Below, in pieces: positions 1 to 16,446 of a stretch of DNA of 16,446 bases; within the stretch, counting starts at the first letter, position 1; each line of letters opens with the position of its first letter. The stretch is from Bacteroidales bacterium (GTDB lineage Bacteria > Bacteroidota > Bacteroidia > Bacteroidales > UBA10428). The translations under genes and the position numbers were made by a program. The stretch lies in assembly GCA_016926235.1 (NCBI GenBank), contig JAFGOZ010000184.1, forward strand, positions 1 to 16,446, read 5' to 3'. The notes beneath the pieces are model-generated. The model was not told the DNA's origin, made no database searches, and saw only the letters and a list, made by a program, of their open reading frames with translations.

Positions 1-1624
1 GAGTCACTTTTAGGTTTTCTGCCATCCATACTTGATCACCGATTTTGACGGTTTTATATACATTACCATCAATGTCTGTAACTGTACCTTCATTTGGATT
101 AATATCCCAATTACCAATATGATAAAGTGAGTCAATCTCAGACTCAATGATTGCTCGATTATATAACCGAACATCATCAATATCTCCATTGAAATCTTTA
201 GAGTTATATCGCTCTGGAGCACCCTTTATGCCTATATACAACGGATCACCGCTATTTCCTGTTGATGAATTTATATAGATGGTACTTGTGTCAAGAACAC
301 CGTCAATATATAATTTTATCGTATTCCCATCCCAAGTACTGACAAGATGTCTCCATTGATTAAATGCGATTTTCTCCTTAGAAAATAATCGATTTGTTTG
401 GTAAATACCAACACCATAAGTTTGCGGTGTAATGTAGCTTTGAATCCCATATTCTCCATTTACACCGTCCCAAAATTTCCACACTATACCGCCATCATCA
501 GTTGCGTTTCCATCTTCATTTATCCAAACACTTATTGAAAATCTTGATAAATTGGAAATTGATTCATCATCAGGAATCTCAATATAATGGCTTACAGATG
601 AATTCCCGGCAAAATGATAAGCACTATTCTCATTCCCAAACCTATCAGTTGTCAAAGTTGCACCACTAACCGTCCCATTATTGCCGTTCCCACTGGCATC
701 AGTGGCATCTCCATTAAATGGATAATAGGCAATTAAGCTACTAATTTTATTTATATTCCCCCAGCATATACTACCTATCTCATAACCATTATTTGTAATT
801 TGTAAAGCATTCGTCCCATCACTCTGCATTTTCCAAATTTCATTATTTTTTATAAATGCAATCTCTTGCCCACTTATTGACCAGACGGGATTAATACCAA
901 TTCCCAAATCGGTGCTATCGCCATTTGTTAAATTGTAAACATAAACATATTTATCTTGACCAATCATTGCGTGATTAAATAGAATTAAAGAATCTTTTAG
1001 CATATCAGTTCCAGTATCACGACCATAGAAATCAGTAATTCGTGTTTGATTATTGCCATCCCAATCCATTATAAATAATTCAACACACATCGCACAACCT
1101 GTACCATTTGTATCCCGGCTAAACAGGATTACTGAATCTTTCATGACACATGCAAAATCATTGATAGCAGTATTGTTTGTTAGATTAGTGATCGAGCCAT
1201 TATAAATATTAACCTTAAAGATTTCTTCATTTTCTCCAGATGATGCAATATCCTGGATAAATAATACAACGGAATCATTTGGAAAAAAACTTAGCGTCCC
1301 ACCAATTGGATCACTCTGTTGGAACACAACCGTTTCTTTATTATCTACAAGACTATATCGAATTAAACTGTACTGCGATGCCTCTGGGTCATATCGTCTA
1401 AAAACCAGAGTCTTTCCATCATGTGATAATGATGGAAATCGATCCCAATCATCAGAATTAATTAGTGGCTCTTGACTGCTTCCATTGCTATCCATCATCC
1501 AGATATCCCAGTCACCAGTCTGATTTATGGAATAAATAATCTTCTCCTGAAAATTAATCCCAAGAAGTTGAAAAACACTAAAAAGAACAATCAATAAAAC
1601 AAATAAAACATGTTGGATTTTCAT
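1..1624 (-). CDS. Exported beta-propeller + LamG + FISUMP-domain protein (3' end outside window)
   Basis: The frame is open from the ATG at 1624 to the left edge: 541 codons, no stop, so the C-terminus is missing. Residues 1-22 are a hydrophobic signal or anchor segment. Residues about 26-290 contain propeller-like repeats of the TolB/PD40 kind ([20 protein letters not shown], then [13 protein letters not shown]; later [14 protein letters not shown]). Residues about 296-502 are a LamG/concanavalin-like fold: [20 protein letters not shown] opens it, [19 protein letters not shown] is its core, and [12 protein letters not shown] closes it. From residue 513, [20 protein letters not shown] followed by MAENLK matches the start of the FISUMP domain (TIGR02145/PF09603 type). 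AGGAGG lies 5 bases before the ATG. It follows the zinc-ribbon gene by 24 bases. Probable surface or secreted binding protein; its ligand cannot be told from sequence. Confidence 0.9.
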
Positions 1625-1629
1625 AATCC

Positions 1630-1635
1630 CCTCCT
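1630..1635 (-). promoter_or_regulatory. Strong ribosome binding site of the LamG/FISUMP gene
   Basis: On the minus strand AGGAGG ends 5 bases before the ATG at 1624. It fixes this start, which might otherwise be missed because the reading frame runs off the window. It also shows that the operon uses classical Shine-Dalgarno signals. Confidence 0.75.
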
Positions 1636-1648
1636 ATAAATAATGATT

Positions 1649-2179
1649 TTATTTCAATTGATGTTTCAGTCGTTGTACTTCCGATTCGATGAAATAATTT
1701 TTCACATTTATCACAATCAATATAAAACAGAGACCAAGCAGAATCAAGGTAAATTCAAATTTTGACATTCTTTTTGAAATAATAACAGATAGGATTTGAG
1801 CTGCTGGTGTCGAGACCGACAAACCAAATGCTATATACCAACCCAATGGTTTATTTCTTATCAATAAGAACAATAAAATCCCAATTAGAAAAAGAAATAT
1901 TATAACAGATAATTCATAATTATTTGAAATAATATTATGAATTAAATCTGTCACTATACTTAGTCCAATTAGTATCCAATATATCCAAAATATATAAAGT
2001 GATACTTTATGCGACTTTTTTTTCAGAGGTTGATTAATTGATCTGTCACTTTCATCAATTCCACTGAATATTATATCACAATTCCAGCATCTTTCATCAT
2101 CTCTTTTAACAATATGATCACAACCAGAACACCGATATTGAAAACCGTATTTTACTTTTAAATTCAATCTTCTTCCCAA
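1649..2179 (-). CDS. Zinc-ribbon protein with four membrane segments
   Basis: Unrecognised small membrane protein of 176 residues. The N-terminus carries a CxxC...CxxC zinc ribbon (Cys17, Cys20, Cys31, Cys34; CSGCDHIVKRDDERCWNCD). A basic, polar linker follows (residues 40-58), then four hydrophobic segments at about 59-84, 89-107, 113-135 and 142-163, and a charged C-terminal tail. The ribbon is probably cytoplasmic, as is usual for such ribbons, with an even number of membrane passes. The frame starts at TTG (2177-2179), one base after the stop of the preceding gene, so it is probably translated by coupling. No good ribosome binding site precedes it; a second TTG at 2165-2167, with GGAAG just upstream, is possible. 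It is the only non-exported product in the set and could be an accessory or sensor protein, but nothing in the sequence proves a function. Confidence 0.8.
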   Translation of the reverse strand: MGRRLNLKVKYGFQYRCSGCDHIVKRDDERCWNCDIIFSGIDESDRSINQPLKKKSHKVSLYIFWIYWILIGLSIVTDLIHNIISNNYELSVIIFLFLIGILLFLLIRNKPLGWYIAFGLSVSTPAAQILSVIISKRMSKFEFTLILLGLCFILIVINVKNYFIESEVQRLKHQLK

Positions 2180-2180
2180 G

Positions 2181-3629
2181 TTAAAATTTTATTATCTCCG
2201 GCTCCATTCCTACAAACTGCGGCATACACTGACCAATATCAGCATTAATATAGGTGGGATCGCAAATTGTATAAACATTTCCATCCACAGTCAATTGATC
2301 CCCTGGAATCCGGTCATGAAACAGCACTGCGGTTGCTAAATGACAGGGATAATGAAGTCCGACAACCGGCAGACCAATTAATTCCCTGACCAGGTATGCA
2401 AATAGTATCGAGCGGTCTTCACAATCGGAGAATGGATAATTAATCGTCTCTTCCGGCATTAGTGGTTTTTCACGGCCGAAATGTTCTTCATCAGTCTTAT
2501 AGTCGAATGCTGTCTGTACAAAACGTAAAAGGATATTAACAGCCTCAGGTTCTGATCTGTTTTGAAGTATTGGGCGAAGAGATTGGATAAGAGTACTTTG
2601 TGACTCTGGACTAGTTGACGCATTAAAATAGACACTAAAATCGGTTTGCGGATAATTCTCAAAATATTTTACTACATCATCGTTATACATCACAATAACC
2701 GTATAAGTTTTTCCTCCATAGGAGAAAGAAAGTGATTTGTTCAAGATTTTATTATTAATTGTCGGAGTATTTGCCACAGCCATGCTGATATTTTTTTTGG
2801 ATAATGAATGTTTCCCTTCATAAATAAACAGACTTCCACAGAATGTGATTTTCGAATTTAAATCAACAACCCAGTATTTAGTATTATCTACGGTAAAGTA
2901 AGGCATGCTGTACAACATATTTTCTGATGGTAACAGTAAAAATATTTTTGAGTTATTATGCCCAACTTTCGCTGTAAATCCAGATTGAATTAACGTAAAC
3001 CAGATAAATAAATTTTGCTGATTATTATCATTCGGGTAAATCTCATTTACAATTTTATTTAATAGAACTACAACGCCCCAATTATTCAGTTCCAACTCCT
3101 TTGTTGATCTTTCGATTTCAGCAATAAAAGGCTGATAATCAGTTTTACTTAACGACTTCCAATATCTGCTGATCGCTATATCATTCACGATGGATATCTT
3201 TTGTTTAAAACTCGGATCTATGTAAAATGTCAATATTTTTCCAAAGTAATCCACTTGAATTCTTTCACCCTTTAAAACGGGTGCTATAACAGATATATCC
3301 TTTATTTCTGGTTCCTTTTTTATAAACGATTTCGAATCTGGAATATCAACTTTATTGATTGATTTTATATCAAAAGATTTTTCCTTGGGTTTCGCCTTAG
3401 GGATCTCTTCTGGTTTTGGTTTATCATATATTTTTCCACTGGAAAATGATTGAAATTCTTTCCATTCATTTTCCAGAAAATTTGAAAATTCCTGATCTTC
3501 CTTACTAATGTAGGAATTGATATCCTGCTCTTCCTGTTTAAGCCATGTTTCATAATCATCCTGAGCGGATATAATTGAGATAAAACAAAGAATAATCAAT
3601 AATAACCGGCTTACATTCTTAATCTGCAT
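2181..3629 (-). CDS. Exported transglutaminase-like cysteine enzyme
   Basis: 482 residues. A signal peptide (1-22, ending IISA before Q23) directs it to the periplasm or beyond. Residues 28-63 form an 11-residue aromatic/acidic repeat, followed by a Lys/Pro/Glu-rich linker to about 115. The central part (120-350) is not recognised. The C-terminal part is a transglutaminase-like fold with all three catalytic positions: Cys403 in YPFSDCEDRS, His430 in YPCHLATAV, and Asp457 in ICDPTYI. Relatives act as transamidases or as cysteine peptidases/amidases on cell-surface proteins or peptide bridges; the substrate here is unknown. GGAG sits 5 bases before the ATG. It follows the OmpA-family gene by 41 bases. 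A TATAAT hexamer at 3647-3652 lies in that gap without a convincing -35 box. Confidence 0.88.
   Translation of the reverse strand: MQIKNVSRLLLIILCFISIISAQDDYETWLKQEEQDINSYISKEDQEFSNFLENEWKEFQSFSSGKIYDKPKPEEIPKAKPKEKSFDIKSINKVDIPDSKSFIKKEPEIKDISVIAPVLKGERIQVDYFGKILTFYIDPSFKQKISIVNDIAISRYWKSLSKTDYQPFIAEIERSTKELELNNWGVVVLLNKIVNEIYPNDNNQQNLFIWFTLIQSGFTAKVGHNNSKIFLLLPSENMLYSMPYFTVDNTKYWVVDLNSKITFCGSLFIYEGKHSLSKKNISMAVANTPTINNKILNKSLSFSYGGKTYTVIVMYNDDVVKYFENYPQTDFSVYFNASTSPESQSTLIQSLRPILQNRSEPEAVNILLRFVQTAFDYKTDEEHFGREKPLMPEETINYPFSDCEDRSILFAYLVRELIGLPVVGLHYPCHLATAVLFHDRIPGDQLTVDGNVYTICDPTYINADIGQCMPQFVGMEPEIIKF
3441..3548 (-). repeat. Three 11-residue (hendecad) repeats in the transglutaminase-like protein
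   Basis: Protein residues 28-60 split into three aligned 11-mers: TWLKQEEQDIN, SYISKEDQEFS, NFLENEWKEFQ, then SF begins a fourth. Position 2 is aromatic, 3 is Leu/Ile, 6 is always Glu, 9 is Asp/Glu and 10 is Ile/Phe. An 11-residue period suits a slightly right-handed helical or coiled-coil segment. It lies directly after the signal peptide, where it could mediate oligomerisation or binding to a partner. Confidence 0.65.
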
Positions 3630-3670
3630 TTTTACTCCATTAATAAATTATATAGGTGTAAAATTACCTT

Positions 3671-4858
3671 TTAGTTCTCCAAATATTCAATTTTAATTTC
3701 AACACGTCTATTTTTTGCTTTATTTTCCTCTGAATCATTTGGAACAAGCGGTTCCTGTTCTCCTCTACCGGAAGCAGATATCAGATTAGTAATAGAATCA
3801 CAGTCCGTTAATATAGATTCTAAAGAGTGTTTTGCTCTCCGATATGACAAATCTAAATTGTATTCTTCGCTACCATCACTGTCGGTATGTCCAACAACTG
3901 TAATACTGGAAATTCGATCAATGTTTTTAATAAACTTTATAATTTCACTTAATATCGTTTTATTTTTTTGAGACGAATCAAGAATGTCTGAGTTGTATGC
4001 AAAATTCAGATAAAAATCCTTACTAGTAAAAACTGCTTGATCGGGTGGTGGCGGTGGCGGGATACGGAGGATTAAATTTTGTATTTTTGGTAATTCAAAT
4101 TGAATGTCCAGTAAAATTGTATCACAAATAAATTCTCCCTTTTCGGCAATTATTTTATAAATTCCCAAATCTTTATAATCAATTACATAGCCACCTTCAT
4201 CACCAGATTGTGTTATTTTTTTCCCGTTCAACGCAATAATAGCCCCCGCAACAGGACGATATTGATCTCTGTTATAGACAATTCCTGCGATCACTTTTGT
4301 TCGAGGGAATACTAATTCTTTAAAATCTACCTGGTTTTTTGATGGATTAATAATACAAACCATCCACAAGCCAGCGGGTATATCCCCAACCAATTTGGTT
4401 TTTGGTGCATTACCTGAAAGTATGTTTGAAATACCAATTCCATCTTCAAAATGTTGAAGCTTTGTCAAGCCAATAACACTGCCATTTTTTAAAATAAGTA
4501 CTTTAATATCTGGCAATTCTTTTCCAAAATCCATTTCATCGTCATCATGACGATTTTTAAGCCATATCGCAAAAGCATCTGTTATTGTACCGGGTAATTC
4601 TACCGAAATTTTCCCGGTCATGAAGTCTGATTCACTTTTTAGTTTTATTCCCTGATGTTCTTGTACACTGTTCTCCAATAAATCATCAAATCCGATTTCA
4701 GTAAAACTTCCATCCTCGTGATACCATGTTAAACAAGGTACAACTTCCGGTCCATCTAGCAAACTGAATTCCGCAATAATCTTATAATCATTCGCAGATA
4801 AAGGGAGTATCGCTAATATTAAAGAAAGGGATAAAATATTAAAACTTCTAAGGTTCAT
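3671..4858 (-). CDS. OmpA-family peptidoglycan-binding protein with carboxypeptidase-regulatory-like domain
   Basis: 395 residues. Signal peptide 1-22 (ending LPLSA). Residues 24-185 form an unrecognised, probably beta-rich domain. Residues about 187-255 look like a carboxypeptidase-regulatory-like beta sandwich (AGIVYNRDQYRPVAGAIIAL, then a glycine turn and YVIDYKDLGIYKI). A run of six prolines (267-272) links this to the OmpA C-terminal domain (276-393): VVGHTDSDGSEEYNLDLSYR, RA at 341-342, GRGEQEP at 364-370, and NRRVEI at 383-388. These carry the Asp and Arg that in this family hold diaminopimelate of peptidoglycan. The role is inferred as tethering an envelope complex to the wall. GGAG lies 12 bases before the ATG, a long spacing. 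The gene starts 24 bases after the M48 peptidase stop. Confidence 0.9.
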   Translation of the reverse strand: MNLRSFNILSLSLILAILPLSANDYKIIAEFSLLDGPEVVPCLTWYHEDGSFTEIGFDDLLENSVQEHQGIKLKSESDFMTGKISVELPGTITDAFAIWLKNRHDDDEMDFGKELPDIKVLILKNGSVIGLTKLQHFEDGIGISNILSGNAPKTKLVGDIPAGLWMVCIINPSKNQVDFKELVFPRTKVIAGIVYNRDQYRPVAGAIIALNGKKITQSGDEGGYVIDYKDLGIYKIIAEKGEFICDTILLDIQFELPKIQNLILRIPPPPPPDQAVFTSKDFYLNFAYNSDILDSSQKNKTILSEIIKFIKNIDRISSITVVGHTDSDGSEEYNLDLSYRRAKHSLESILTDCDSITNLISASGRGEQEPLVPNDSEENKAKNRRVEIKIEYLEN

Positions 4859-4882
4859 AAAATATTATTACTCCATAATTTA

Positions 4883-6109
4883 TCATTTTAGATAATGAAG
4901 CGAATCAGTAATAAAACTTTCTATTTTTGAAATTCTATCACCCAATGCATCTTTCTGCCAATTGGATTCGGAATTATAGAATTCCCGTTCAGTTGAGTAA
5001 TTAATAATTTCAAGTATATTTAATAGTCCAAAAGGATTGTATCCTAAATTGTATATATAAACTACGCCATATTTATCGGCTTCGTATTCATAGGATATTT
5101 GTCTCTTTTTTGTAGCGTAATTATATAAATCAGCAGATAAACTCTCAAGCGATTGGGTCAAAGAATCTGATTCATATTCTAGGGAATTTGTAAATTCTAA
5201 ATAATCATCATCAATATATTCACTTTGATCTATCTGCTTTAATTCCTGATCAAGTTTATTAAAATTAAAATCCACCATAATTTGTGTACTTCTTTTTATT
5301 AGTTCTTCTGCTCCATGTTGACAAACAACATGAGATATTTCATGAGCTAATATGCATGCAAGTTCATCTTCATTTTCAGCTATATTATAAAGCCCCTGAC
5401 TAATAAATATATAACCATTTGGTAGTGCATATGCATATAATCGATCATCTTTCAAAATGAAAAATTTGAATGATACATCATATAAAGGTGTAAATTGTGT
5501 AATGTAAGTTCCAAGTATATTGATGTACTTAAGATCTGAACTATTTGATATAATTTCATGGTTTGATAATATTTTAACTGCAACTGCAATACTGATATTA
5601 TTGACGAACGAGTTTTGTTCAATATTTTCGTTATTATTGGATATTACATACCTTTCTGCTTTGAGTAGATTATTTCTTCTATCTGCATACTCTAAGTATT
5701 CCTGTGTATTAAAAAAAGTATTATTAAAAAAATCAAAGGAGATATCTGTATCTTTAAAATTTAAATAAGTTTTGAAAAATCCCTTGATTGCTCCGCTTGC
5801 AGAATTCGATGATATTGTTAAAGAATCTGGAATACTAAAATGAAAATCATTTTTATTACTACTCTTTTTCTTCTTTAATGCATTTTCAGATATCCAGCCA
5901 ACAGTGTGTAACTCATCATTTAGCCGAACTTTGTACCATCCTGGTTCATTTTTCAGGATTTTTACTGATACACCTGATTTAATTATTCTATTCGTCGAAT
6001 AAATTGATCCAGGACCTTTCCGTAACCATACATTTTCCCGGTTTATAGTATGAAATTCTTCTCCAAAACATAATAAAAATGGTAACAATAGAATGAAGTA
6101 GAATCGCAT
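4883..6109 (-). CDS. Exported SH3b-M48 zinc metallopeptidase
   Basis: 408 residues from the preferred start. The frame also has an ATG at 6124, but the ATG at 6109 has GGGGGA 7 bases upstream and gives a clean signal peptide (MRFYFILLLPFLLCFG), so I prefer it. A bacterial SH3 domain follows (RENVWLRKGPGSIYSTNRII to GWISENAL), of the kind that often binds wall peptides. The M48 core has LPNGYIFISQGLY, the zinc site ILAHEISHVVCQHG (HEISH), and the third ligand in YEYEADKYG. Relatives such as BepA and LoiP are periplasmic proteases that degrade or assist outer-membrane proteins. BepA carries TPR repeats, which I do not see; the SH3b fusion replaces them. Inferred job: envelope quality control or processing of products of this operon. 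Confidence 0.9.
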   Translation of the reverse strand: MRFYFILLLPFLLCFGEEFHTINRENVWLRKGPGSIYSTNRIIKSGVSVKILKNEPGWYKVRLNDELHTVGWISENALKKKKSSNKNDFHFSIPDSLTISSNSASGAIKGFFKTYLNFKDTDISFDFFNNTFFNTQEYLEYADRRNNLLKAERYVISNNNENIEQNSFVNNISIAVAVKILSNHEIISNSSDLKYINILGTYITQFTPLYDVSFKFFILKDDRLYAYALPNGYIFISQGLYNIAENEDELACILAHEISHVVCQHGAEELIKRSTQIMVDFNFNKLDQELKQIDQSEYIDDDYLEFTNSLEYESDSLTQSLESLSADLYNYATKKRQISYEYEADKYGVVYIYNLGYNPFGLLNILEIINYSTEREFYNSESNWQKDALGDRISKIESFITDSLHYLK

Positions 6110-6116
6110 TATTTTA

Positions 6117-6122
6117 TCCCCC
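6117..6122 (-). promoter_or_regulatory. Ribosome binding site deciding the M48 start
   Basis: GGGGGA on the minus strand lies 7 bases before the ATG at 6107-6109. It overlaps the first codons of the longer frame beginning at 6124, which has no comparable signal of its own. This favours the shorter protein. Confidence 0.6.
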
Positions 6123-6135
6123 ATTTTTCATTCTA

Positions 6136-6882
6136 CTAGTCTTCATTTAATAAAGGTGAGAATATATCTTTAACCTTTATTCTCACATTGACATAAAACA
6201 TTTTATTCTCATTGTCGGGCCATCTCTCAACAACTTCTATGTTTTTTAACTTAAAATTAAGTTCAACTGCCAATGCAATTTCAAGATCATCCTGATTTTC
6301 TGATAAATTTGATATTTTCACTTGATATATTTTTACTACAACGCCATTCAGTATCTCAAAATAAGCTCTTTCTTCAGCCGTTTTCCAGGCATCATTTATA
6401 TTTAATCTGGCGCTGTAGACACCAGTTGCATAATAATATCCATCTTCTTCCCAGAATATATTATTAATCCAATCTGGAGTCTTCATTGTAGATATATCCA
6501 CTGGATCAGGTTGAATAGTTAACAACGAATCCAACGAAAATATTGCTACTTTATCATTGGGTACAATTGAAGTAGTAAATTGATCTTTTAATATTAATTT
6601 GTCTTTAATTGACTGTAGTGAGTCATAGGGAAAATAGTAATAATAGTCACTAAATCTTTCATCGATAAAGTTGTATTGGTACAGATGTCCTTTCACAATG
6701 CACTCTTTGTATATCCAAAACATCTGTTCTGCGTCGGCAGATGCCGCGTAACCGTGATAGCTAAAACCAATTACTGTATTTTTATACTCCGATGGAAATA
6801 TAAACCAATGAGGATAATATTCTTGAGAAAAAATAGCAGTACTACATACAACTAACAGAAATAATAAGTAATATTTTTTCAT
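6136..6882 (-). CDS. Exported LPP20-like protein, second copy
   Basis: 248 residues with a signal peptide (1-20, ending TAIFSQ). The C-terminal half resembles the LPP20 family: TPDWINNIFW, then YYYATGVYSARLNINDAWKT, an AEERAYFEIL helix, and a closing VVERWPDNENKMFYVNVRI strand pair (residues 136-235). The N-terminal part repeats the opening pattern (PHW at 24-26, VIGFSYHGYAASADAEQ at 37-53), so the protein may be a degenerate two-domain form. No lipobox is visible: the only Cys near the signal is Cys13, inside the hydrophobic core. LPP20 proteins are envelope proteins of poorly known role. No Shine-Dalgarno sequence lies between the upstream hairpin and the ATG, so expression may be low. The stop lies 26 bases before the M48 start. 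Confidence 0.75.
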   Translation of the reverse strand: MKKYYLLFLLVVCSTAIFSQEYYPHWFIFPSEYKNTVIGFSYHGYAASADAEQMFWIYKECIVKGHLYQYNFIDERFSDYYYYFPYDSLQSIKDKLILKDQFTTSIVPNDKVAIFSLDSLLTIQPDPVDISTMKTPDWINNIFWEEDGYYYATGVYSARLNINDAWKTAEERAYFEILNGVVVKIYQVKISNLSENQDDLEIALAVELNFKLKNIEVVERWPDNENKMFYVNVRIKVKDIFSPLLNED

Positions 6883-6892
6883 ATTGAAATAT

Positions 6893-6916
6893 GTGAGCGG
6901 GATTTCTCCCGCTCAC
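6893..6916 (-). promoter_or_regulatory. Perfect intercistronic hairpin between the two LPP20-like genes
   Basis: The minus-strand transcript has GTGAGCGGGA, loop GAAA, then TCCCGCTCAC: ten perfect base pairs, mostly G-C, closed by a GNRA-type tetraloop, in an otherwise AT-rich region. It begins 9 bases after the LPP20 stop and ends 10 bases before the next ATG. No U-run follows, so it is not a standard intrinsic terminator. It more likely protects the 3' end of the upstream message, attenuates read-through, or limits translation of the next gene. Confidence 0.7.
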
Positions 6917-6925
6917 CATTTAACA

Positions 6926-7504
6926 TTAATAATCAATTTTTCCGGCAGCTTTTTCTTTTTCGTAATCTTGCATTTCTCTGTCAAGTTCCTCATAAGCTTT
7001 TGAAGCACGGAATCTTTCATACAGTTTCGGTTTCTTCTGCATTTCATCGAGAATAGATTGATCAAGTGTTTTGGGGTTAATTCCAACTAATACCGCATAA
7101 TGAACCCGATTGGTTTTTTTATTATTATAGTATTTGGAATCAATCACTACTGAACCAACCAATGTCTGATTTGTTACGGTCTTCGTAACAGCGGTAAATG
7201 CCTCATTAATTTCAGCATCTGTGGATCCAATCTCTTCCAGGAACATTTTTCTAAGATCTTCAACTTTCGTCTCAAAGCTCTGTGCAATTAAAGCACGCGC
7301 TGCAGTGGTTGCTTTTTCTTTTGCGATATCTGCGCGAGCTCCTTCTCTTTCACCGACTGCGGCAACGCCACCGCTTTCAATAATCTTGTTTGCTTTCTGT
7401 TGCAGCATTTCGAACGGGTCACTCTGTACGGCGATACCACCCGCGCAGTTCATGAACGACAGTGCAAACATACTTAGCAAGATAACAGTTAGGACTTTTT
7501 TCAT
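6926..7504 (-). CDS. LPP20-family probable lipoprotein
   Basis: 192 residues. The signal region MKKVLTVILLSMFALSFMNC places Cys20 just after the hydrophobic core, as in a lipoprotein, but Asn at -1 and Met at -2 are not the usual lipobox residues; ordinary signal peptidase cleavage near residue 25 is the alternative. The LPP20 domain spans about 38-145: GGVAAVGEREGARADIAKEK, an Ala-rich helix, then LVGSVVIDSKYY and NRVHYAVLVGI. The C-terminal 45 residues are charged and probably helical. AAGGAGG stands 5 bases before the ATG, the best ribosome binding site in the window. In nine full 60-base lines I counted about 41% GC, against 22-27% in single neighbouring-gene lines. This suggests high expression or strong selection. 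It starts 37 bases after the PorV-like gene, and the hairpin follows its stop. Confidence 0.82.
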   Translation of the reverse strand: MKKVLTVILLSMFALSFMNCAGGIAVQSDPFEMLQQKANKIIESGGVAAVGEREGARADIAKEKATTAARALIAQSFETKVEDLRKMFLEEIGSTDAEINEAFTAVTKTVTNQTLVGSVVIDSKYYNNKKTNRVHYAVLVGINPKTLDQSILDEMQKKPKLYERFRASKAYEELDREMQDYEKEKAAGKIDY

Positions 7505-7509
7505 TTTTT

Positions 7510-7516
7510 CCTCCTT
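7510..7516 (-). promoter_or_regulatory. Near-consensus ribosome binding site of the LPP20 gene
   Basis: AAGGAGG with a 5-base spacer to the ATG at 7502-7504. It is the closest match to the anti-16S consensus in the window and sets this gene apart from its neighbours. Confidence 0.8.
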
Positions 7517-7541
7517 TTTTGTTAAATGAACATCCTTCCTC

Positions 7542-8543
7542 TCAAATTCTACTAAAAATGATTGAAATTGTATTTAGCGAACCAAAATACTCGTTGGTAT
7601 AAGTGTAGGCTATTTTTAACATTTGATATTCTATAGTTGTACCAAATGATATTCTTTTAGAATAATCTGTAAATAACTCAAATTCTTTAATGTTTGATTG
7701 CATATTATAATGATTATAACCAGCAGAGAATGATATACCTTGATAATTTGCCAGATAATAACCAAAAGAAAACCCAGCATTCAAATATAACGGATGGTTT
7801 TCTTGCTGTTCAATATCAATAATGCTTAGTACTCTTATTTTATTGTTAAGTAAATGGTTATTGGTATATTGAATAGAAGCAGAAGTCAATGCATTGTTGC
7901 GCTCTATAATTTTTACTGATTCCTCATTCTGTCCTAAGTCTATTTTACTTGAGCCATAATACACTAAGTTTAAATCCAAATCTTTTAATAAGTGAAACGA
8001 CATGCCAAACCTTCCTCCGGCAAGTGGGGGATAATCATTCTTTATGTTTTGTCCACCATCAATCATTGAAGTTGAATAAAAAATAGAAAAACCAAGGTCA
8101 TATAATATTCCGGCTCTTGAAAGCGCAGAAAATACGGCAATATTCATATTATTAAATGTGCTTAAATAGTTCATGTATTCATCATATTGATCAATTGCCG
8201 CAATATCGTTATAGATTACACCTGCCGCAATACAATATTTTTTTAATCCTATTGGTAACGCTGCCGTAATATTTCCACACCTTTGATCAAAGATTTTAGG
8301 AATAAAATTATACGATAACTGGATAGAAGCATTTACAATGGTAGATAATCCTGTTGGATTATAAAATATCGCAGATGCTGATGGTAATACAGCAGATTGA
8401 CAATTACCAATTCCAATATATTCCGGTGATTGCGGTTGAAGAAGATATGCAGCGGCACCATGCGTTTCAATGAAATTGTCTTCTGCAGATAGTTTGGATA
8501 TGATTATTATAAGAAAGATTGTATTTAGAATCTTTTTTTTCAT
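7542..8543 (-). CDS. PorV/UPF0164-like outer-membrane beta-barrel protein
   Basis: 333 residues. Signal peptide 1-20 (ending SKLSA). Residues 44-67 hold the family hallmark: a GIGNCQSAVLPSASAIFYNP stretch followed by TGLS, matching the A-x-A-x-[FY]-x-NPAGL pattern of PorV/PorQ-type proteins. The rest alternates polar and hydrophobic residues as in a barrel, with Gly/Tyr-rich strands (LNAGFSFGYYLANYQGISFS, RISFGTTIEYQMLKIAYTYT). PorV in the type IX secretion system carries proteins with a C-terminal sorting domain from the translocon to the attachment machinery. The gene directly upstream encodes such a cargo, so a dedicated shuttle or partner is a fair inference. The ATG follows the giant gene's TAG with no gap, and AGGA within the end of that gene can serve as ribosome binding site, so translation is probably coupled. 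Confidence 0.83.
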   Translation of the reverse strand: MKKKILNTIFLIIIISKLSAEDNFIETHGAAAYLLQPQSPEYIGIGNCQSAVLPSASAIFYNPTGLSTIVNASIQLSYNFIPKIFDQRCGNITAALPIGLKKYCIAAGVIYNDIAAIDQYDEYMNYLSTFNNMNIAVFSALSRAGILYDLGFSIFYSTSMIDGGQNIKNDYPPLAGGRFGMSFHLLKDLDLNLVYYGSSKIDLGQNEESVKIIERNNALTSASIQYTNNHLLNNKIRVLSIIDIEQQENHPLYLNAGFSFGYYLANYQGISFSAGYNHYNMQSNIKEFELFTDYSKRISFGTTIEYQMLKIAYTYTNEYFGSLNTISIIFSRI

Positions 8544-11500
8544 CTAGTTCCTGATAAATATTTTTGTCATTCGATATTTATTATTAATAAGATCATCACC
8601 AATTTTTATAAAGGCAAAGTACACTCCTGATGCAAGATAATTGTTATTCATATCTTTACCATCCCAGAATAACTCTGTGTGTATTCCTGGCTGTGTAAGT
8701 GTTGATCCTTCATCAATTTTCTGCATAAACACAGGTTGTCGCGAAGCATCTAAAATCACTAAGTAAATTGGTTCTATAACTTGCTCATTTAACACATATC
8801 GAAAACGTGTTTCACCTAATACAGCATTAAATGGGTTAGGATAATTAAAGAATTCCTTTGACAAAATATGTTTACTCATGTCGATTTTATAACCGGTTTG
8901 TCCCCTAATAATATTGCCCGCTCTATCGGAAATATGTGTTGATATAGTAATTCCATCAATAATATCAATATGATTCTCTTTAACTATATCCTTAAATGTA
9001 AAGTGAGGGATTGATATAGGAGAATAATTAAAATTTACATCTACTCCAAGATTCGAAAACATATCGCTACTCGTAACTTCTATTGGTTCCCATATAATAG
9101 TCGTATCAAAAGGAACATTTGTAGAAATCGTATCCATGCTATATATATATGGGAATAATTCAAAATTGTTCAATACTGAGCATATAGTATCAGAAAATGC
9201 TACTTTAATTGAATCTCCGTTTGATGATAAATAAATATTGTCTGAAATAAATGTTTTAAAGGTATCATTTAGTGATACAGTATGCCCCCATTTACTATTT
9301 TTTGCAGTTCCTGGTAATGGATAAAAGATAACCGTATCAGGCGCTTCAGTATCTAAAATAAATTGCCTATAAATTGGAATACCAGGGTACGAAGAGACTT
9401 GTGGTTTTATCTTAATCTGATATATTCCATCGTCGAATTGATTCTTTGAAAAATCAAGTGTATCATTTAATTGTGTACCATTTTGTTCATTTATTCTATT
9501 AAGTAATATACAATTCATTAAGCCTAATTTCCCCCAAATGTCACTGAGTGAATCACAATTAACAATTAATGCATCTGTAGTATTAAAAAACCAATCATTC
9601 GGTAAAAGTGAATCATTTTTTGAACAAAAAAGCATATCAGGATTTCGATTGTTAGAAAAGACTGACATATCTTTAAAATCGCGATGCAATATTTGATCGG
9701 CAAATAGTATTCGTTCTGAATTTGGAGATTTACTTTTTAATTTCTCACCAGAAGAGAATTTTTGCCTTGGTAAAATAGATTTCTGATACCATTTATTTAT
9801 TTCATAAATATCATTATCTTCAAGCAAAATACCAACTTCAACGCCTAAGTCAGATACATTTACCTGGAAATGTCCAGATTTATTATTGATTGAATATGGT
9901 TCAGCATATACTCGAAAATCACTGGAATCAATTGTAGCACTATTATTATTAATGACACCGGGATTAAAATGAGCCTTTGATATTATTGATGTAATCTTTG
10001 AGATACTATTTATTGTTTCAAAATGTGGTTTCTTAACATAAAAAGGCAATTGATATGAAAATGAACTATCACTTAAAAATACTGAGTTTTTATGAACACC
10101 ATCATTTGTACTTATTAATAAATATATCTCGCCACTGACTGAATTCGAATTGAAAATCGATTGTTTGTGATTGAATTCAATCGCAATTGAATCGCCCTTC
10201 GCGAAAGGATTTAAAATGGTAATACTGTCAGAAAAGAAATCGGTCGATGTGTCCGTTGGTAACTTCATTTGAAAATTATTATCAGAGAGATTGAGTATAA
10301 ATACACGATTATTCAATAAAACCTTTTCACCTGTATCAGAATTGAAAGTAATTAGGCATTTTTGTGTCATCGGTTCATATCTCATATCCGGATTTAATGT
10401 GAATTCTTCAAATCCGATTTCCAATTGGCCAACATTAATAAAATTATCTGAGCTATCAACAATGTTATACTTATTTTCTGAGAAGTAAGGTTCAGTATAT
10501 TCTAATCTTACTCTTATCGGTTCTTTCGAAATACTGTTGAAAGGCAGAAAATATAAAGAATCAAGTACAATTTGATCTTCAAAGACATAATCAGGTAATT
10601 TAATCTTAGATTTGATATCACTGACGACCAGTGAATTATTAATTTTAGTGGGATCCCAGGAATACGATGTATTTGAGAATGATATATACCAGTCATATTC
10701 TGATAAATTCAAAGTTTTAACGATATTATCTTCATTTATAATAATACTTGGTAATGCTAAATATTCACCTGTATCATGAATTTCATACACTCTATTTGTA
10801 TCTAAGATAATTGATGGGGCACCGATCGCCATGATTAAATCATTTCTTAGAATAAATGACTTATTATATCCATCCAGGATACAGCACAAATTATCATAAG
10901 ACGATTCAATTAAATTCTTAACATATAGACTATCAATTGCAATTGGCTGGTCAAGGGAAAGTGTATCTATGTCAATTTGTAAAATTTTATCAGAAATAAG
11001 TTCTGCTTTATAATTATTTTCCAGATTTCCAATTCTGACATTCAATGAATCTTTGATTTTCTCACTATCCCAGATTGCTGGTAAATACTTATGAGTAGAT
11101 GATGTTATTGGATCTTCAGGAATTACTAACCATATAACTGAACTCGGCGTTGGGTACTTGTGGTTCTCTTTTATCTCATATCCAGATTTAATTATTAATC
11201 CAGGCAATCTTTTACTTTTCTCCTTGTCCATTTTGATAAATGTCATGCTTGCAGTACTAGTTGTATCATATGTAAAAATAAATGGATTTATGTAAAGGTT
11301 CTTATTATCATAGGCCTGGGCTAATGTGTTATTGTCTAATTTGAGAATTATTGAATCGGAAATTGTGGTTATATTTCTCGAAGTTCGAACACGTAAACCA
11401 TTAATATATACTGTATCACTTGATGAAAAAGGTTTTCGAACTTTAAGTGAAAAAACAGTGTCATTATTAGCGGAATTAAATATAACTCTGTTATCAATAT

Positions 11501-14500
11501 TCATCCATGAATTAGAATTGTTAGGTGATGATAACTGAACATATTTCATCGTAGTGTCCCATTTTACTGAAGAATTCTTACTTAAATGGAATCTTAATAA
11601 TACATCAGTATCGAGGATTGGATTATAAGGGTCATCAGCTAACTGAAGACTGTCAATTTTGAAGGTGTTGTTTGGCACTAGATAGTAAGGATGTTCAAGT
11701 CCAATAGATGGAGCACTAATATATTTTGGAAAATCCTTATTTATAAATGGAGAATAATCTCTGTTTTTCAGAGAATATTGAAGCTTATATCCCTGGCCAG
11801 ATTTCGGTTTTATAAAGTCCATAACTTTTAGACCATATATCATTAAGGAATCATTTGGAGCAAAGTCACTTGATAGTACAAAAACAGCGACTTTTCCTTC
11901 TTCTTCCCAGAGTAAATCAGAAATACGATTAGAGTCTGTGGCGGTACCCGTCAACAAAAGTGAATCCAGATTACATGCACTTGTATCAAACCTCATTGAT
12001 ACCGTATCAGGTATATGTATTCGAATATTATATTCATGAGGACTGCTGGAATGTTCAATATTTGACCAGATCGCGGTGTATTCTGGATCATTTTTAATCT
12101 TAATCGCATTTAAAAACGTACTATTTTGATTATAAACAAAAACCTGTACTGAATCACTTCTTATTTCTGGTGATGCCACATAATATTCATCTGCAATCGT
12201 ATGTACTGTGAAATAATATTGATCATCCAACCCATTAAACGCTATATCAATTTTGGGAATTTGGGTTGATTTCAATTCATTTTGCCGATCTGATTTTTCA
12301 TTCGCAGATTGAATAAAATAAATATTACTAAGTACAATTTGTTCACGGTTTTCAAGATCACGATCAAACATTATTTTTAGGTATTTTTTTGAATCACCAA
12401 AGATTTTTGTTTTAGTTTTAACTGTGTCAATAGTGAGATCATCAGTCATAGACGATGAAACCTTAATGCGAGATAAACTATCTGAACACCATTCAATGGT
12501 TAATTCATCAGAGATTCGTAACGTAATACCATCCGATTGGGTAATGCATGCTATGGAGTCTTCTTGAATAATTATTTTATGCAATGTGTCAATTGCTCCC
12601 GGTTCTAATATAAATACATCATCGTACACTGGTAGGACCTTTGGGTCACCTACTCTGATTTCATTTGATGTGATACGCTGTACCTGCCCGATAGTATTTA
12701 AAGTTAAGTTTAATTTTGATGGCGGTAATACCTCATTAAATTTTCTAAACAGTGAACCATGAATATCTATTGATCCATCAATGTTTAAAAACGAATTTCG
12801 AATTTCGTTTATTGGAATTCTTAGATGTTTTCCGTAGACCTTGTCGGAGAAGTTTTGATTATTAATATTCCATTCAAAATTTACTGAATCACTGATTGTA
12901 ATTATCAACGTGTCAGTTGAAATATCTTCTATTTCTAGATAAGAGATTAATATTGTATCACTAATAATAATCTTCGTCGGTTCAATTCGTAAAGAAGTGT
13001 CTCCAATACTATAAGCAAATTCTCTGTTTAAATCAAAGTCAGGGTTAGAAAATATTAAACCTTTCTTTGTTGTATCAGTATAAGAATAATTATTATCTTC
13101 TTCATTTGCTGATATTGAAAACCTTGTCAAATTAAATACGTTATTAGAATTATTTAAATATATATTAGAAATACTAATTGAATCAGGATATTCAGCATGA
13201 TTCAATATTTCATTATACGCAAGGGACAATCGAATTAGGTTAGTTGAATCAAAAATAGTATAAGTACTTTCTTGAAAAGAATTTGGAGTACCATCGATAT
13301 AATAATCGAATTTTGCATTAGCAACATCAATTAATCCCATTGATCTGTTTTCTGGGAATTTTATTCTAAGTATAAGAGAATCATCAAGATATTCAAATAG
13401 ATTTGCTCCTGACAAATCATACTTAAAAATTATAGTGGGTAGTAGCATACCAATAGATTCATTTATTCCTTGGTTATCGGTAATATTTGTAAAGTACAAT
13501 TGATTTCGTGAAAGGTCAGGAATCAAATCACAGATTCCAATTAAACCGCCCTCATCATTTTTGGGAGCAAAATCATTATGATCAATAGAATGGTATTGAT
13601 CATGGACGGAAAGTGATAATGTATCAAAATCGATCGGATCGTTAAAATTAATAAGTCTTAGTCCGGATAGAATTAAAGTATCACCTAAGTTTAGTGAACT
13701 ATTCCAGTGTAACTGTATCGTTTTGCCACTATTTATATAGGAAATTGAATCCAATAAGTTTGATACTTGTGTATAAAATTTTAAATCACTAATGGAAACA
13801 GATTCATCAAATGTAAATCCTAAAGGTAATTGAATATTACAATTGAGATATGAATCAGTAATCGATACAGTGGAATCTTCAATATAGAATAAATCAGGTA
13901 GCGCTTCCTTATCATCGCCAACAAAATAAGTTCTGTTTTCGCTTAATACTATTTGTGGGTCACCGATTCGTAGTGAGTAGTCAGTGCTATCACTGTAAAA
14001 ACTTTTTTGTTCAACAACATTCAATAATATTTTAGTACTATCACTAATTCCTGAGAAATTCTTAAGGTCAAAACTAAAACTAAGCGTATCTCCTGCAGAT
14101 AAATCCCTATCAAAAAAGAGTTCAAGAGTTTTATTTAAATCCACAATTTTTACTGAATCAACATTTGATTGTGTGCTTAAATTAATGAAACTTGCTGAGT
14201 CGATAGTAGCATTAAAATCATCCAAATTAATTCTGAGATTATGCTTTGAAGTGATTGCTGCCTCAAGTGGATCCTCTTTGATTGTAATGATACCGATTGA
14301 TCGCGGATTGGGATCTTCCTTTCTATAGACATGATCATGGTCCAAATGTATCTTTGGATTCCCTATGCGGATTGTATTTTTTGTTGTATTAATTGGGTGA
14401 TTACGATCTGAGAATGAAAGACTGACTATATCACGCTTCATTGGATATTTAATATTTTTTATCTTAATTCCACTCAATTGAACTGAATCGGGAATTACTG

Positions 14501-16446
14501 AGTATATTAAATTCAAACAGCCGCTAGTCGAATCATATAAAGTGTAGTCTGGTGGATTAGGTGTAATTAAAACTTCATTAGGAAAAATATCCGATATATC
14601 TTCCAAATCTTTGGGAAAATAAATCTTTATTGTGTCAATATCCAATTGTCCTAATTTACCATCTTTTTTTATTTTAATTGGAAACATAAAATCTTCCAGT
14701 TGTGATGTCACAAAAACGGAGTTCTCAGATAAGGAAATCTGTGGTTGACCTGACCGAAGACAATGTTGACTTTGGAATTGATGCTGATAATGGGGATATA
14801 CTGTTTGGCTTCTGTTAACATACAGATCAAAGAATTCAAGGCTATCGTAATAAACAGAATTACTTGCATAACCAAGATTTCGTATGGTAATTCCTGAATT
14901 AATAGTATCAGATAAAATAATAGTTAAACTACTATCATTACTTGATTCAATATTGGCATTCCCAATTAAATTAATATTATTTGTATCAATCCATCCTGCA
15001 CCTGCATGAAGAACAATTTTAAGAGTATCTCCAGCATGCAAAAATGTATCTGAAGGACCATCAGTGATTCTTATTTCAGGTATTGGACGTGAGATATCAT
15101 TTATTGCAAAATTTTTATTACCTGAAATATTGACATTAGGCTGTCCGATTTTTATCTCTTTTGGATCGTGAATATGCCATCTCTTAGTCCAATTATTATT
15201 TCCACCTGCAAGGAAAGAGTAATTAAAATGGATAGTTGTATCTGTAGCAGTAGTATCATTAAAATCTGAAATAAAAAGATTTTTAATAGTGATTGTATCC
15301 AATATACTGTAACCAGAAAGATCATCGGGTGCTAGAGTTATTTCAAGAATATTTGAATTAGAATTACTCTCTATCACTTCAATTGTAGATTCTAATCTTA
15401 CATCATTTATTAAAACAGAGATTTTATTTTGGTCCTCCCATTTTAATGATGAATCACCATCATTAATATATGGCAATTTAATATATATCGAATTTGCGAA
15501 AGTACCTAAGGACGGAGATTTTCCATTCTCAGTAATTCTAATGTCTTTTGTAATAGATGTAGTGTTATGAAATATGAATTTATTATCTTCTAGAGATGTA
15601 ATGGTACAATGACTTACTTGTATCGAATCAATCGATTGGCTATTGTATTCTTGAACTCGATTTCCATCCTTACCTGTAATATCTAACAGCAGCGGCAAAG
15701 GATATGACAAATCGGTCACATTGAAATCTATATTTGATAATTGTACGCTATTTGTAAAATCTTCATTAAGAACAAATACACAATTCTTTTTATCACTTTT
15801 TGTAGAATCAATATTTATAGTTGAGGGGTAAGAAGCCCATTTAACTCCCAATGCATCAGGTATCCGGATAAAAACCGAATCCCCTTCCTTGAGAAAATCC
15901 TGATTACCTCCCTCAAATAATCTCATTGAAACTGAATTCCATAATGAATCCGGGGTAAAGATAAAATGTGGTTCAATTTCAAATTCCAAATACGGCTTCC
16001 CTATCATAATCCTCTTTTTATCATTAACAGACTGTTTTTGGATTGTTAAATATGGAATACCGTTTTCCTGAGTATTTTTTAAGGTAATTTCAAACCATTT
16101 TATCTTCAAAGTATCGGTTTCAGCCCAATCACGATCCAATTGAAATTCGACGGTCTTTAATGAATTATTGATAATGATGTTAATGCCTGTTTTTATCAAT
16201 CCTTCGTTTGATGTAAAATCGACATTATGAATACTATCAACAACGTTATCAGGAAATGTGATTTTAATTGTATCATCATTAATAAAATATCCACCCAATT
16301 GACCATTAATAATATTCATTGGATATAAATATCGGTGACTATCTGAATATATAAATTTATGGTCTCTGCTTGAGGCAATGGAAGGATTGCCAACCCGAAC
16401 TCCATAGATATCCGCCAGCGGAAAAGCACTATTGTATCCAACACCA
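8544..16446 (-). CDS. Giant tandem-repeat surface protein with type IX/FlgD-like C-terminal domain (5' end outside window)
   Basis: At least 2633 residues: the frame stays open past the ATG at 16319 to the right edge, and residues before that Met (YGVRVGNPSI...) continue the repeat pattern, so that Met is internal. From the right edge to about 10000 the protein is a row of about 16 diverged units. Each has an anchor like IRIGDPQI, an acidic I-x-I-x-E/D strand, a D-S/T-L-x-I-x-I-P strand often ending in Trp, and a closing GDTL-x-I-x-x-L-x-I-x-N-F strand pair. The predicted structure is all-beta, rich in Ser, Asp, Asn and Ile. After a unique stretch (about 9990-9480) comes an Ig-like region (RQFILDTEAPDTVIFYPLPG; SDRAGN), then the sorting domain. 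I do not recognise the repeat family. A fibrous adhesin or surface-layer-like role is inference. It is probably first or early in the operon as seen. Confidence 0.9.
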   Translation of the reverse strand, partial: GVGYNSAFPLADIYGVRVGNPSIASSRDHKFIYSDSHRYLYPMNIINGQLGGYFINDDTIKITFPDNVVDSIHNVDFTSNEGLIKTGINIIINNSLKTVEFQLDRDWAETDTLKIKWFEITLKNTQENGIPYLTIQKQSVNDKKRIMIGKPYLEFEIEPHFIFTPDSLWNSVSMRLFEGGNQDFLKEGDSVFIRIPDALGVKWASYPSTINIDSTKSDKKNCVFVLNEDFTNSVQLSNIDFNVTDLSYPLPLLLDITGKDGNRVQEYNSQSIDSIQVSHCTITSLEDNKFIFHNTTSITKDIRITENGKSPSLGTFANSIYIKLPYINDGDSSLKWEDQNKISVLINDVRLESTIEVIESNSNSNILEITLAPDDLSGYSILDTITIKNLFISDFNDTTATDTTIHFNYSFLAGGNNNWTKRWHIHDPKEIKIGQPNVNISGNKNFAINDISRPIPEIRITDGPSDTFLHAGDTLKIVLHAGAGWIDTNNINLIGNANIESSNDSSLTIILSDTINSGITIRNLGYASNSVYYDSLEFFDLYVNRSQTVYPHYQHQFQSQHCLRSGQPQISLSENSVFVTSQLEDFMFPIKIKKDGKLGQLDIDTIKIYFPKDLEDISDIFPNEVLITPNPPDYTLYDSTSGCLNLIYSVIPDSVQLSGIKIKNIKYPMKRDIVSLSFSDRNHPINTTKNTIRIGNPKIHLDHDHVYRKEDPNPRSIGIITIKEDPLEAAITSKHNLRINLDDFNATIDSASFINLSTQSNVDSVKIVDLNKTLELFFDRDLSAGDTLSFSFDLKNFSGISDSTKILLNVVEQKSFYSDSTDYSLRIGDPQIVLSENRTYFVGDDKEALPDLFYIEDSTVSITDSYLNCNIQLPLGFTFDESVSISDLKFYTQVSNLLDSISYINSGKTIQLHWNSSLNLGDTLILSGLRLINFNDPIDFDTLSLSVHDQYHSIDHNDFAPKNDEGGLIGICDLIPDLSRNQLYFTNITDNQGINESIGMLLPTIIFKYDLSGANLFEYLDDSLILRIKFPENRSMGLIDVANAKFDYYIDGTPNSFQESTYTIFDSTNLIRLSLAYNEILNHAEYPDSISISNIYLNNSNNVFNLTRFSISANEEDNNYSYTDTTKKGLIFSNPDFDLNREFAYSIGDTSLRIEPTKIIISDTILISYLEIEDISTDTLIITISDSVNFEWNINNQNFSDKVYGKHLRIPINEIRNSFLNIDGSIDIHGSLFRKFNEVLPPSKLNLTLNTIGQVQRITSNEIRVGDPKVLPVYDDVFILEPGAIDTLHKIIIQEDSIACITQSDGITLRISDELTIEWCSDSLSRIKVSSSMTDDLTIDTVKTKTKIFGDSKKYLKIMFDRDLENREQIVLSNIYFIQSANEKSDRQNELKSTQIPKIDIAFNGLDDQYYFTVHTIADEYYVASPEIRSDSVQVFVYNQNSTFLNAIKIKNDPEYTAIWSNIEHSSSPHEYNIRIHIPDTVSMRFDTSACNLDSLLLTGTATDSNRISDLLWEEEGKVAVFVLSSDFAPNDSLMIYGLKVMDFIKPKSGQGYKLQYSLKNRDYSPFINKDFPKYISAPSIGLEHPYYLVPNNTFKIDSLQLADDPYNPILDTDVLLRFHLSKNSSVKWDTTMKYVQLSSPNNSNSWMNIDNRVIFNSANNDTVFSLKVRKPFSSSDTVYINGLRVRTSRNITTISDSIILKLDNNTLAQAYDNKNLYINPFIFTYDTTSTASMTFIKMDKEKSKRLPGLIIKSGYEIKENHKYPTPSSVIWLVIPEDPITSSTHKYLPAIWDSEKIKDSLNVRIGNLENNYKAELISDKILQIDIDTLSLDQPIAIDSLYVKNLIESSYDNLCCILDGYNKSFILRNDLIMAIGAPSIILDTNRVYEIHDTGEYLALPSIIINEDNIVKTLNLSEYDWYISFSNTSYSWDPTKINNSLVVSDIKSKIKLPDYVFEDQIVLDSLYFLPFNSISKEPIRVRLEYTEPYFSENKYNIVDSSDNFINVGQLEIGFEEFTLNPDMRYEPMTQKCLITFNSDTGEKVLLNNRVFILNLSDNNFQMKLPTDTSTDFFSDSITILNPFAKGDSIAIEFNHKQSIFNSNSVSGEIYLLISTNDGVHKNSVFLSDSSFSYQLPFYVKKPHFETINSISKITSIISKAHFNPGVINNNSATIDSSDFRVYAEPYSINNKSGHFQVNVSDLGVEVGILLEDNDIYEINKWYQKSILPRQKFSSGEKLKSKSPNSERILFADQILHRDFKDMSVFSNNRNPDMLFCSKNDSLLPNDWFFNTTDALIVNCDSLSDIWGKLGLMNCILLNRINEQNGTQLNDTLDFSKNQFDDGIYQIKIKPQVSSYPGIPIYRQFILDTEAPDTVIFYPLPGTAKNSKWGHTVSLNDTFKTFISDNIYLSSNGDSIKVAFSDTICSVLNNFELFPYIYSMDTISTNVPFDTTIIWEPIEVTSSDMFSNLGVDVNFNYSPISIPHFTFKDIVKENHIDIIDGITISTHISDRAGNIIRGQTGYKIDMSKHILSKEFFNYPNPFNAVLGETRFRYVLNEQVIEPIYLVILDASRQPVFMQKIDEGSTLTQPGIHTELFWDGKDMNNNYLASGVYFAFIKIGDDLINNKYRMTKIFIRN
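8547..8846 (-). other. C-terminal sorting domain (T9SS/FlgD-Ig-like) of the giant protein
   Basis: The last 100 residues begin NYPNPFNAVLGETRFRYVL and continue through a VILDASRQPVF strand, ELFWDGKDMNNNYLASGVYF, and KYRMTKIFIRN at the end. This is the standard order of the FlgD-Ig/type IX C-terminal domain found on secreted proteins of the FCB group. It implies export by signal peptide (outside the window) and then surface attachment or release. Confidence 0.88.
10000..16400 (-). repeat. About 16 diverged tandem beta units in the giant protein
   Basis: Anchor motifs lie near 16390 (VRVGNPSI), 16000 (IMIGKPYL), 15615, 15145 (IKIGQPNV), 14745 (LRSGQPQI), 14360 (IRIGNPKI), 13960 (LRIGDPQI), 13530, 13045 (LIFSNPDF), 12650 (IRVGDPKV), 12175 (YVASPEI), 11710 (YISAPSI), 11280 (LYINPFIF), 10820 (MAIGAPSI), 10425 (INVGQLEI) and 10035 (YVKKPHF). 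Spacing is 385-485 bases, or about 128-162 residues. Anchors near 15615, 13530, 12175, 11280 and 10035 are weak. I noticed no long DNA-level identity between units, so the duplication looks old. Confidence 0.75.

Follow-up and report, generated by a model that had tools for sequence, protein, structure and literature searches.

A 16,446 nt stretch of DNA from a Bacteroidales bacterium (contig JAFGOZ010000184.1 of assembly GCA_016926235.1; hereafter the window) encodes on its minus strand a giant protein, P0001, the body of which is a tandem array of units of about 131 aa. The unit is a real, unnamed sequence family of well-known fold, and the giant surface proteins that carry it are of a familiar type; what is uncommon is that one group of homologues shares the order of its units and that some homologues lack a head domain. 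We count 15 units in P0001 (Table 1); units 8, 13 and 15 among them are weak. A first-pass annotation of the DNA had described such tandem units, sharing an order of strand motifs and strongly diverged, and this description was borne out: compared in 54 pairs, the window units are on average 18.5% identical. Because the first anchor (the short motif that opens a unit) already lies at residue 16 (nt 16400), the array reaches the edge of the window and, with the 5′ end of the gene open, the annotation was right to place its start outside. The interval that it gave, 10000–16446, fits the array (anchors from nt 16400 to 10043) but not the whole protein, which continues to 8544.

Evidence for the repeat array

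The main test of the repeats was a profile hidden Markov model (HMM) trained on 77 units from P0003–P0007, all homologues, and on none from the window; these homologues had themselves been found using the window protein as query. Applied to P0001, with E-values computed for that single protein, the profile gave 15 rows. Twelve have E<1e-3 (6.5–68.5 bits), and the remaining three are weaker, at 5.0, 1.6 and −0.8 bits. Among the controls, reversed P0001 reached at most 0.4 bits and 20 shuffles at most 0.1 bits. The check proposed by the annotation, in which units cut at the anchors are aligned and turned into a profile, pointed the same way: an HMM from six window units recovered four stretches absent from its training (from residues 1263, 1425, 1579 and 1874) at 4.2–16.5 bits, the best control scoring 1.6, while further expected units (rows at 281, 1026, 1134, 2045 and 2163) scored only −1.0 to −1.7 bits, which is the range of the controls.

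The anchors are looser than had been proposed. About 16 of the form [IVL]R[IV]G[DNK]Px[IV] had been reported, and this strict form matches P0001 only four times. A weight matrix derived from the units of homologues (sites counted at ≥3 bits; background of 500 shuffles) finds 17 sites against 3.1 expected; 13 are in register, at steps of 129–158 residues plus steps of 438 and 298 where anchors are unrecognisable, and four are off register. Taken one by one, only 5 of the 17 sites score higher than 11.1 bits, the 95th percentile for the best site of a shuffle; the anchor evidence lies in how many sites there are and how they are spaced. The anchors near residues ~965, ~1130 and ~1729 were placed by inference rather than matched. 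The last anchor in register, at residue 2135, falls in the alignment where the tail of the homologues begins; as it opens this conserved tail, we count 15 units and not 16.

That a beta-rich protein has thrown up a repeat-like pattern by chance is extremely improbable. The shortage of strict anchors, the lack of single-site significance for the majority of anchors, and the scores of unit 8 (no better than controls) and unit 15 (just above them) are what such a pattern might give, but it would not produce 12 units at E<1e-3 against a best control of 0.4 bits with a profile that was never trained on the window, nor confidently predicted domains whose boundaries match the anchors. For the array as a whole, the homologue-trained profile and its controls refute it.

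Table 1. Positions of P0001, its units and tail, and the adjacent gene in the window (all on the minus strand; bits for units from the homologue-trained profile)
Feature	Position (nt)	Residues	Anchor	Bits	Remark
P0001, giant array protein	8544..16445				one open frame, 2633 codons + stop; 5′ end beyond window
Unit 1	16011..16400	16–145	VRVGNPSI	36.1	
Unit 2	15624..16010	146–274	IMIGKPYL	19.7	
Unit 3	15156..15623	275–430	IQVSHCTI	21.8	
Unit 4	14760..15155	431–562	IKIGQPNV	25.9	
Unit 5	14373..14759	563–691	LRSGQPQI	16.0	
Unit 6	13974..14372	692–824	IRIGNPKI	58.3	structure modelled
Unit 7	13554..13973	825 to ~964	LRIGDPQI	52.1	structure modelled
Unit 8	13059..13553	~965–1129		−0.8	weak, within control range; boundaries inferred from spacing
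Unit 9	12660..13058	~1130–1262	not recognised	10.2	
Unit 10	12186..12659	1263–1420	IRVGDPKV	44.2	
Unit 11	11727..12185	1421–1573	YYVASPEI	68.5	
Unit 12	11262..11726	1574 to ~1728	KYISAPSI	40.5	
Unit 13	10833..11261	~1729–1871		5.0	weak, E 0.0015; boundary inferred
Unit 14	10440..10832	1872–2002	MAIGAPSI (10.4 bits)	6.5	E 5e-4; columns 2–76 of 134
Unit 15	10044..10439	2003–2134	INVGQLEI (8.0 bits)	1.6	weak; columns 89–130 only
Conserved tail, not array	8547..10043	2135–2633			alignable with P0003, P0011, P0012, P0013
C-terminal ~100 residues	8547..8846				YPNPF at residue 2534; FlgD_ig-like putative sorting/anchoring domain
PorV/PorQ-like gene	7542..8543			32.6 (NF033709)	directly downstream of P0001 gene, 0 bp gap; E 6e-8

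Fold and sequence family of the unit

Structure prediction of adjacent units, also suggested by the annotation, gave one beta-sandwich for each of units 6 and 7, with boundaries that coincide with the anchors. The predicted fold is an immunoglobulin-like (Ig-like) beta-sandwich and, at the level of predicted structure, the unit has the fold and size (~100–150 residues) of Ig-like adhesin domains. Structural matches, including integrin and GH20 rows, are read as this common Ig-like arrangement, and a new fold is therefore not supported. A model of residues 1870–2633 (5 rows) had a predicted local distance difference test (pLDDT) score of 32 and was not used.

No family in Pfam or NCBIfam matched P0001 at E≤1. 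When 25 two-unit stretches were scanned against Pfam, four families came up, each in just one or two of the stretches (best E 0.0088); the best match among PDB sequences had E 0.48 for P0001 and 0.074 for profile A1, and the best in PHROGs E 0.095. The first reading, that the unit fits no named domain, thus agrees with the absence of a profile for it in Pfam, NCBIfam and PHROGs, and its proposal of a new repeat family is supported as far as a new sequence family, and no further. In a literature search that excluded subscription journals and preprints, none of the papers listed concerned this repeat family, judging by titles and the openings of abstracts.

Comparison with Ig-like domains of Gram-positive adhesins and pilins (PrgB 8beg, antigen I/II C-domains 3opu and 2woy, BcpA 3kpt, ClfB 3asw) brings out differences as well: the unit has no sequence match to them and no conserved-Lys column, and P0001 has no LPxTG. 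An internal isopeptide bond needs conserved Lys, Asn and Asp/Glu, as set out in PMC10588982. Over 165 units the highest Lys columns are 74 (48%) and 86 (43%); with no column of conserved Lys, an isopeptide-bonded adhesin or pilin domain was rejected. Separately, the unit alignment has acidic columns (20, 32 and 100) that might bind calcium. An RTX or LPxTG protein was rejected likewise, as P0001 contains neither motif; GGxGxD occurs 0 times in P0001 and twice in the homologue P0012.

Homologues and the order of their units

Protein searches found five homologues beside the protein itself with P0001 as query, and nine beside the query with P0003. At E<1e-3, the unit occurs 21 times in P0003, 16 in P0004, 19 in P0005, 21 in P0006, 6 in P0007, 18 in P0008, 23 in P0009, 16 in P0010, 8 in P0011, 7 in P0012 (from Candidatus Marinimicrobia) and 8 in P0013. 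P0014 (from an Omnitrophica bacterium), P0015 and P0016 (from a Gemmatimonadota bacterium) carry one unit each, so the unit also exists as a lone domain; these single units are strong (104–118 bits) and lie within other large proteins.

Six giant homologues (P0004, P0005, P0006, P0008, P0009 and P0010) share the order of their units. Reciprocal best unit matches are co-ordered in all 15 protein pairs, and 192 of the 198 matches (10 to 17 per pair) keep this order, which none of 2000 shuffles reached. Mean identity is 41% for the 198 reciprocal pairs, a value inflated by best-match selection, 26% for other cross pairs and 27% for units inside one protein. With units numbered from the C-terminus, 133 of 139 matches show no offset in the ten pairs without P0006; in the five pairs that include this protein the offset is usually one or two, perhaps because of uncounted units there. 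P0011 and P0012 have seven of seven units in the same order. This is most simply read as inheritance of an ancient array whose units have not been homogenised; since descent accounts for the shared order, the order alone is no proof of a separate function at each place.

P0001 has three to five reciprocal matches with each of nine proteins. Its best order, 4/4 with P0010, was reached by a 0.035 fraction of shuffles in one of the nine comparisons, so that no register is demonstrated for the window protein. The order of P0003 agrees with that of P0010 (6/6, 0.004) and disagrees with those of P0005, P0008 and P0009. In P0009, the first six units (residues 25–811) are 55–74% identical between neighbours and later units 11–41%, as would be expected, from these identities, if the array had recently grown by duplication at its N-terminal end. 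A stronger proposal is a headless rod of fixed register, in which the identity of each unit is conserved by place, the distal N-terminal end grows by duplication and binding is spread along the rod over place-specific units rather than confined to a tip domain; we regard this as unlikely.

A scan of genome contigs returned two Flavobacteriales loci in which the match is confined to 36 C-terminal residues, and neither genome matched the unit alignment. Among 395 genomes sampled from the phylum of these loci, two (with loci L003 and L004) had a match at E≤0.001, which is suggestive of rarity of the unit in that phylum, in a sample that held no genome known to carry the family. The L004 match spans 35 columns of a protein resembling a peptidase by eye. 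Locus L003 encodes tandem ~130 aa repeats, labelled DUF2808 by Pfam, that match the middle of the unit; profile–profile comparison gave 54% probability against the homologue units and 38% against the window units, with PKD repeats (1.4%) and cadherin-like repeats (0.6%) as controls. The match, which spans 67 of 134 columns at 4% identity, hints at a possible remote common origin. The corresponding value for window against homologue profiles, 99.8%, is not independent, as the window units were picked and aligned with the homologue profile.

Ends of the protein and its proposed role

Most of the giant homologues found terminate in a YPNPF/FlgD-like domain. P0001 and ten homologues carry YPNPF ~100 residues before the C-terminus, whereas P0007, P0014, P0015 and P0016 lack it there; the FlgD_ig model PF13860 scores above cut-off in P0003 and has no hit in P0001. 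At the other end, P0003, P0005, P0008, P0009 and P0013 start with a sequence that looks like a signal peptide by eye; the N-terminus of P0001 lies outside the window.

Our favoured reading, held with somewhat better than even confidence, is that P0001 is an exported, C-terminally anchored rod of Ig-like domains, serving as a fibrillar adhesin or coat. We infer export, outer-membrane attachment, rod shape and adhesive or coat function from the directly supported array, predicted fold and conserved tail. In this model, about 15 or more Ig-like domains strung from anchor to anchor would form a semi-rigid rod, and the FlgD-like C-terminal domain, perhaps with the help of a PorV-like protein, would carry the protein through the outer membrane and fix it there, so that the rod reaches away from the cell. 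The long surface rod envisaged by the annotation stays a fair inference, favoured by the YPNPF tail and by the neighbouring PorV-like gene, the latter with a score below its cut-off.

Parallels exist for such a rod. MpAFP, the ice-binding RTX adhesin of Marinomonas primoryensis, is likewise a giant Gram-negative protein with many tandem Ig-like repeats and a proposed rod, and four repeats of its region II form a rod of ~190 Å, according to PMC4083281; by analogy with the rise of this rod, 15 units of P0001 might span ~70 nm. The MpAFP copies are described there as identical and 104 aa long, in contrast to the ~131 aa units of P0001, with their low mean identity and lack of GGxGxD. According to PMC12618676, type IX secretion cargo of Bacteroidota consists of surface proteins that bear a sorting domain at the C-terminus and rely on shuttles of the PorV or PorP/SprF type. 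P0001 is similar in its putative FlgD_ig-like end and PorV-like neighbour, and unlike such cargo in that no type A or B sorting-domain model of NCBIfam matches P0001, P0003, P0011 or P0012; the FlgD_ig-like end stands in its place.

Alternatively, the array may be a mere spacer that presents a separate adhesive or enzymatic head encoded beyond the window. We consider this less likely. Several points count in its favour: the N-terminus of P0001 is outside the window; other sequence precedes the array in P0011 (tandem-95 repeats) and P0012 (Big_9 and tandem-95 repeats); and precedents exist in PMC4083281, for MpAFP, and in PMC10588982, where the Ig-like domains of PrgB are hypothesised to be a rigid stalk. 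Moreover, the argument from unit order against a spacer is weakened, because descent alone explains the order and best matches were selected. On the other side, four homologues with at least 18 units each (P0003, P0005, P0008 and P0009) have the start of their array at residues 25–35, right behind the signal-peptide-like start; as these have no separate head before the array, the units themselves could carry binding sites.

Some surface layers consist of Ig-like domains, and P0001 might instead belong to a paracrystalline surface layer or sheath rather than form single rods. Units that are old and kept in order would be fitting for a packed lattice, but P0001 shows no register with the six-protein group and no S-layer family is among its Pfam and NCBIfam matches; we judge it improbable.

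Genomic neighbourhood

The gene for P0001 is the first of nine same-strand ORFs (≥100 aa) with intergenic gaps of 0–43 bp, and with the eight downstream ORFs (2–8543) it probably forms one operon. The product of the adjacent gene scores under the curated cut-off of 90 bits for NF033709, with its best stretch at residues 31–140, and thus falls short of PorV/PorQ membership; as a search query, its sole match was itself. The other ORFs encode an LPP20-like protein (weak, below cut-off), a 248 aa protein, an M48 peptidase with an SH3-like part, an OmpA-type protein, a 482 aa protein that is transglutaminase-like by eye, a 176 aa membrane protein that weakly matches a zinc ribbon and, last, a TolB-propeller/laminin-G protein whose frame meets the window edge in the first part of a FISUMP domain. 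Together with the tail of P0001, these neighbours point to an organism of the FCB group.

Implications

Our analysis yields a profile for a repeat missed by the libraries searched. Its carriers are giant proteins, one of them from Marinimicrobia, as well as proteins of an Omnitrophica and a Gemmatimonadota bacterium that have a single unit. Unlike adhesins built from identical repeats, these arrays are diverged, and the unit order shared by six giant homologues offers a handle on how they expand and what keeps them from homogenising.
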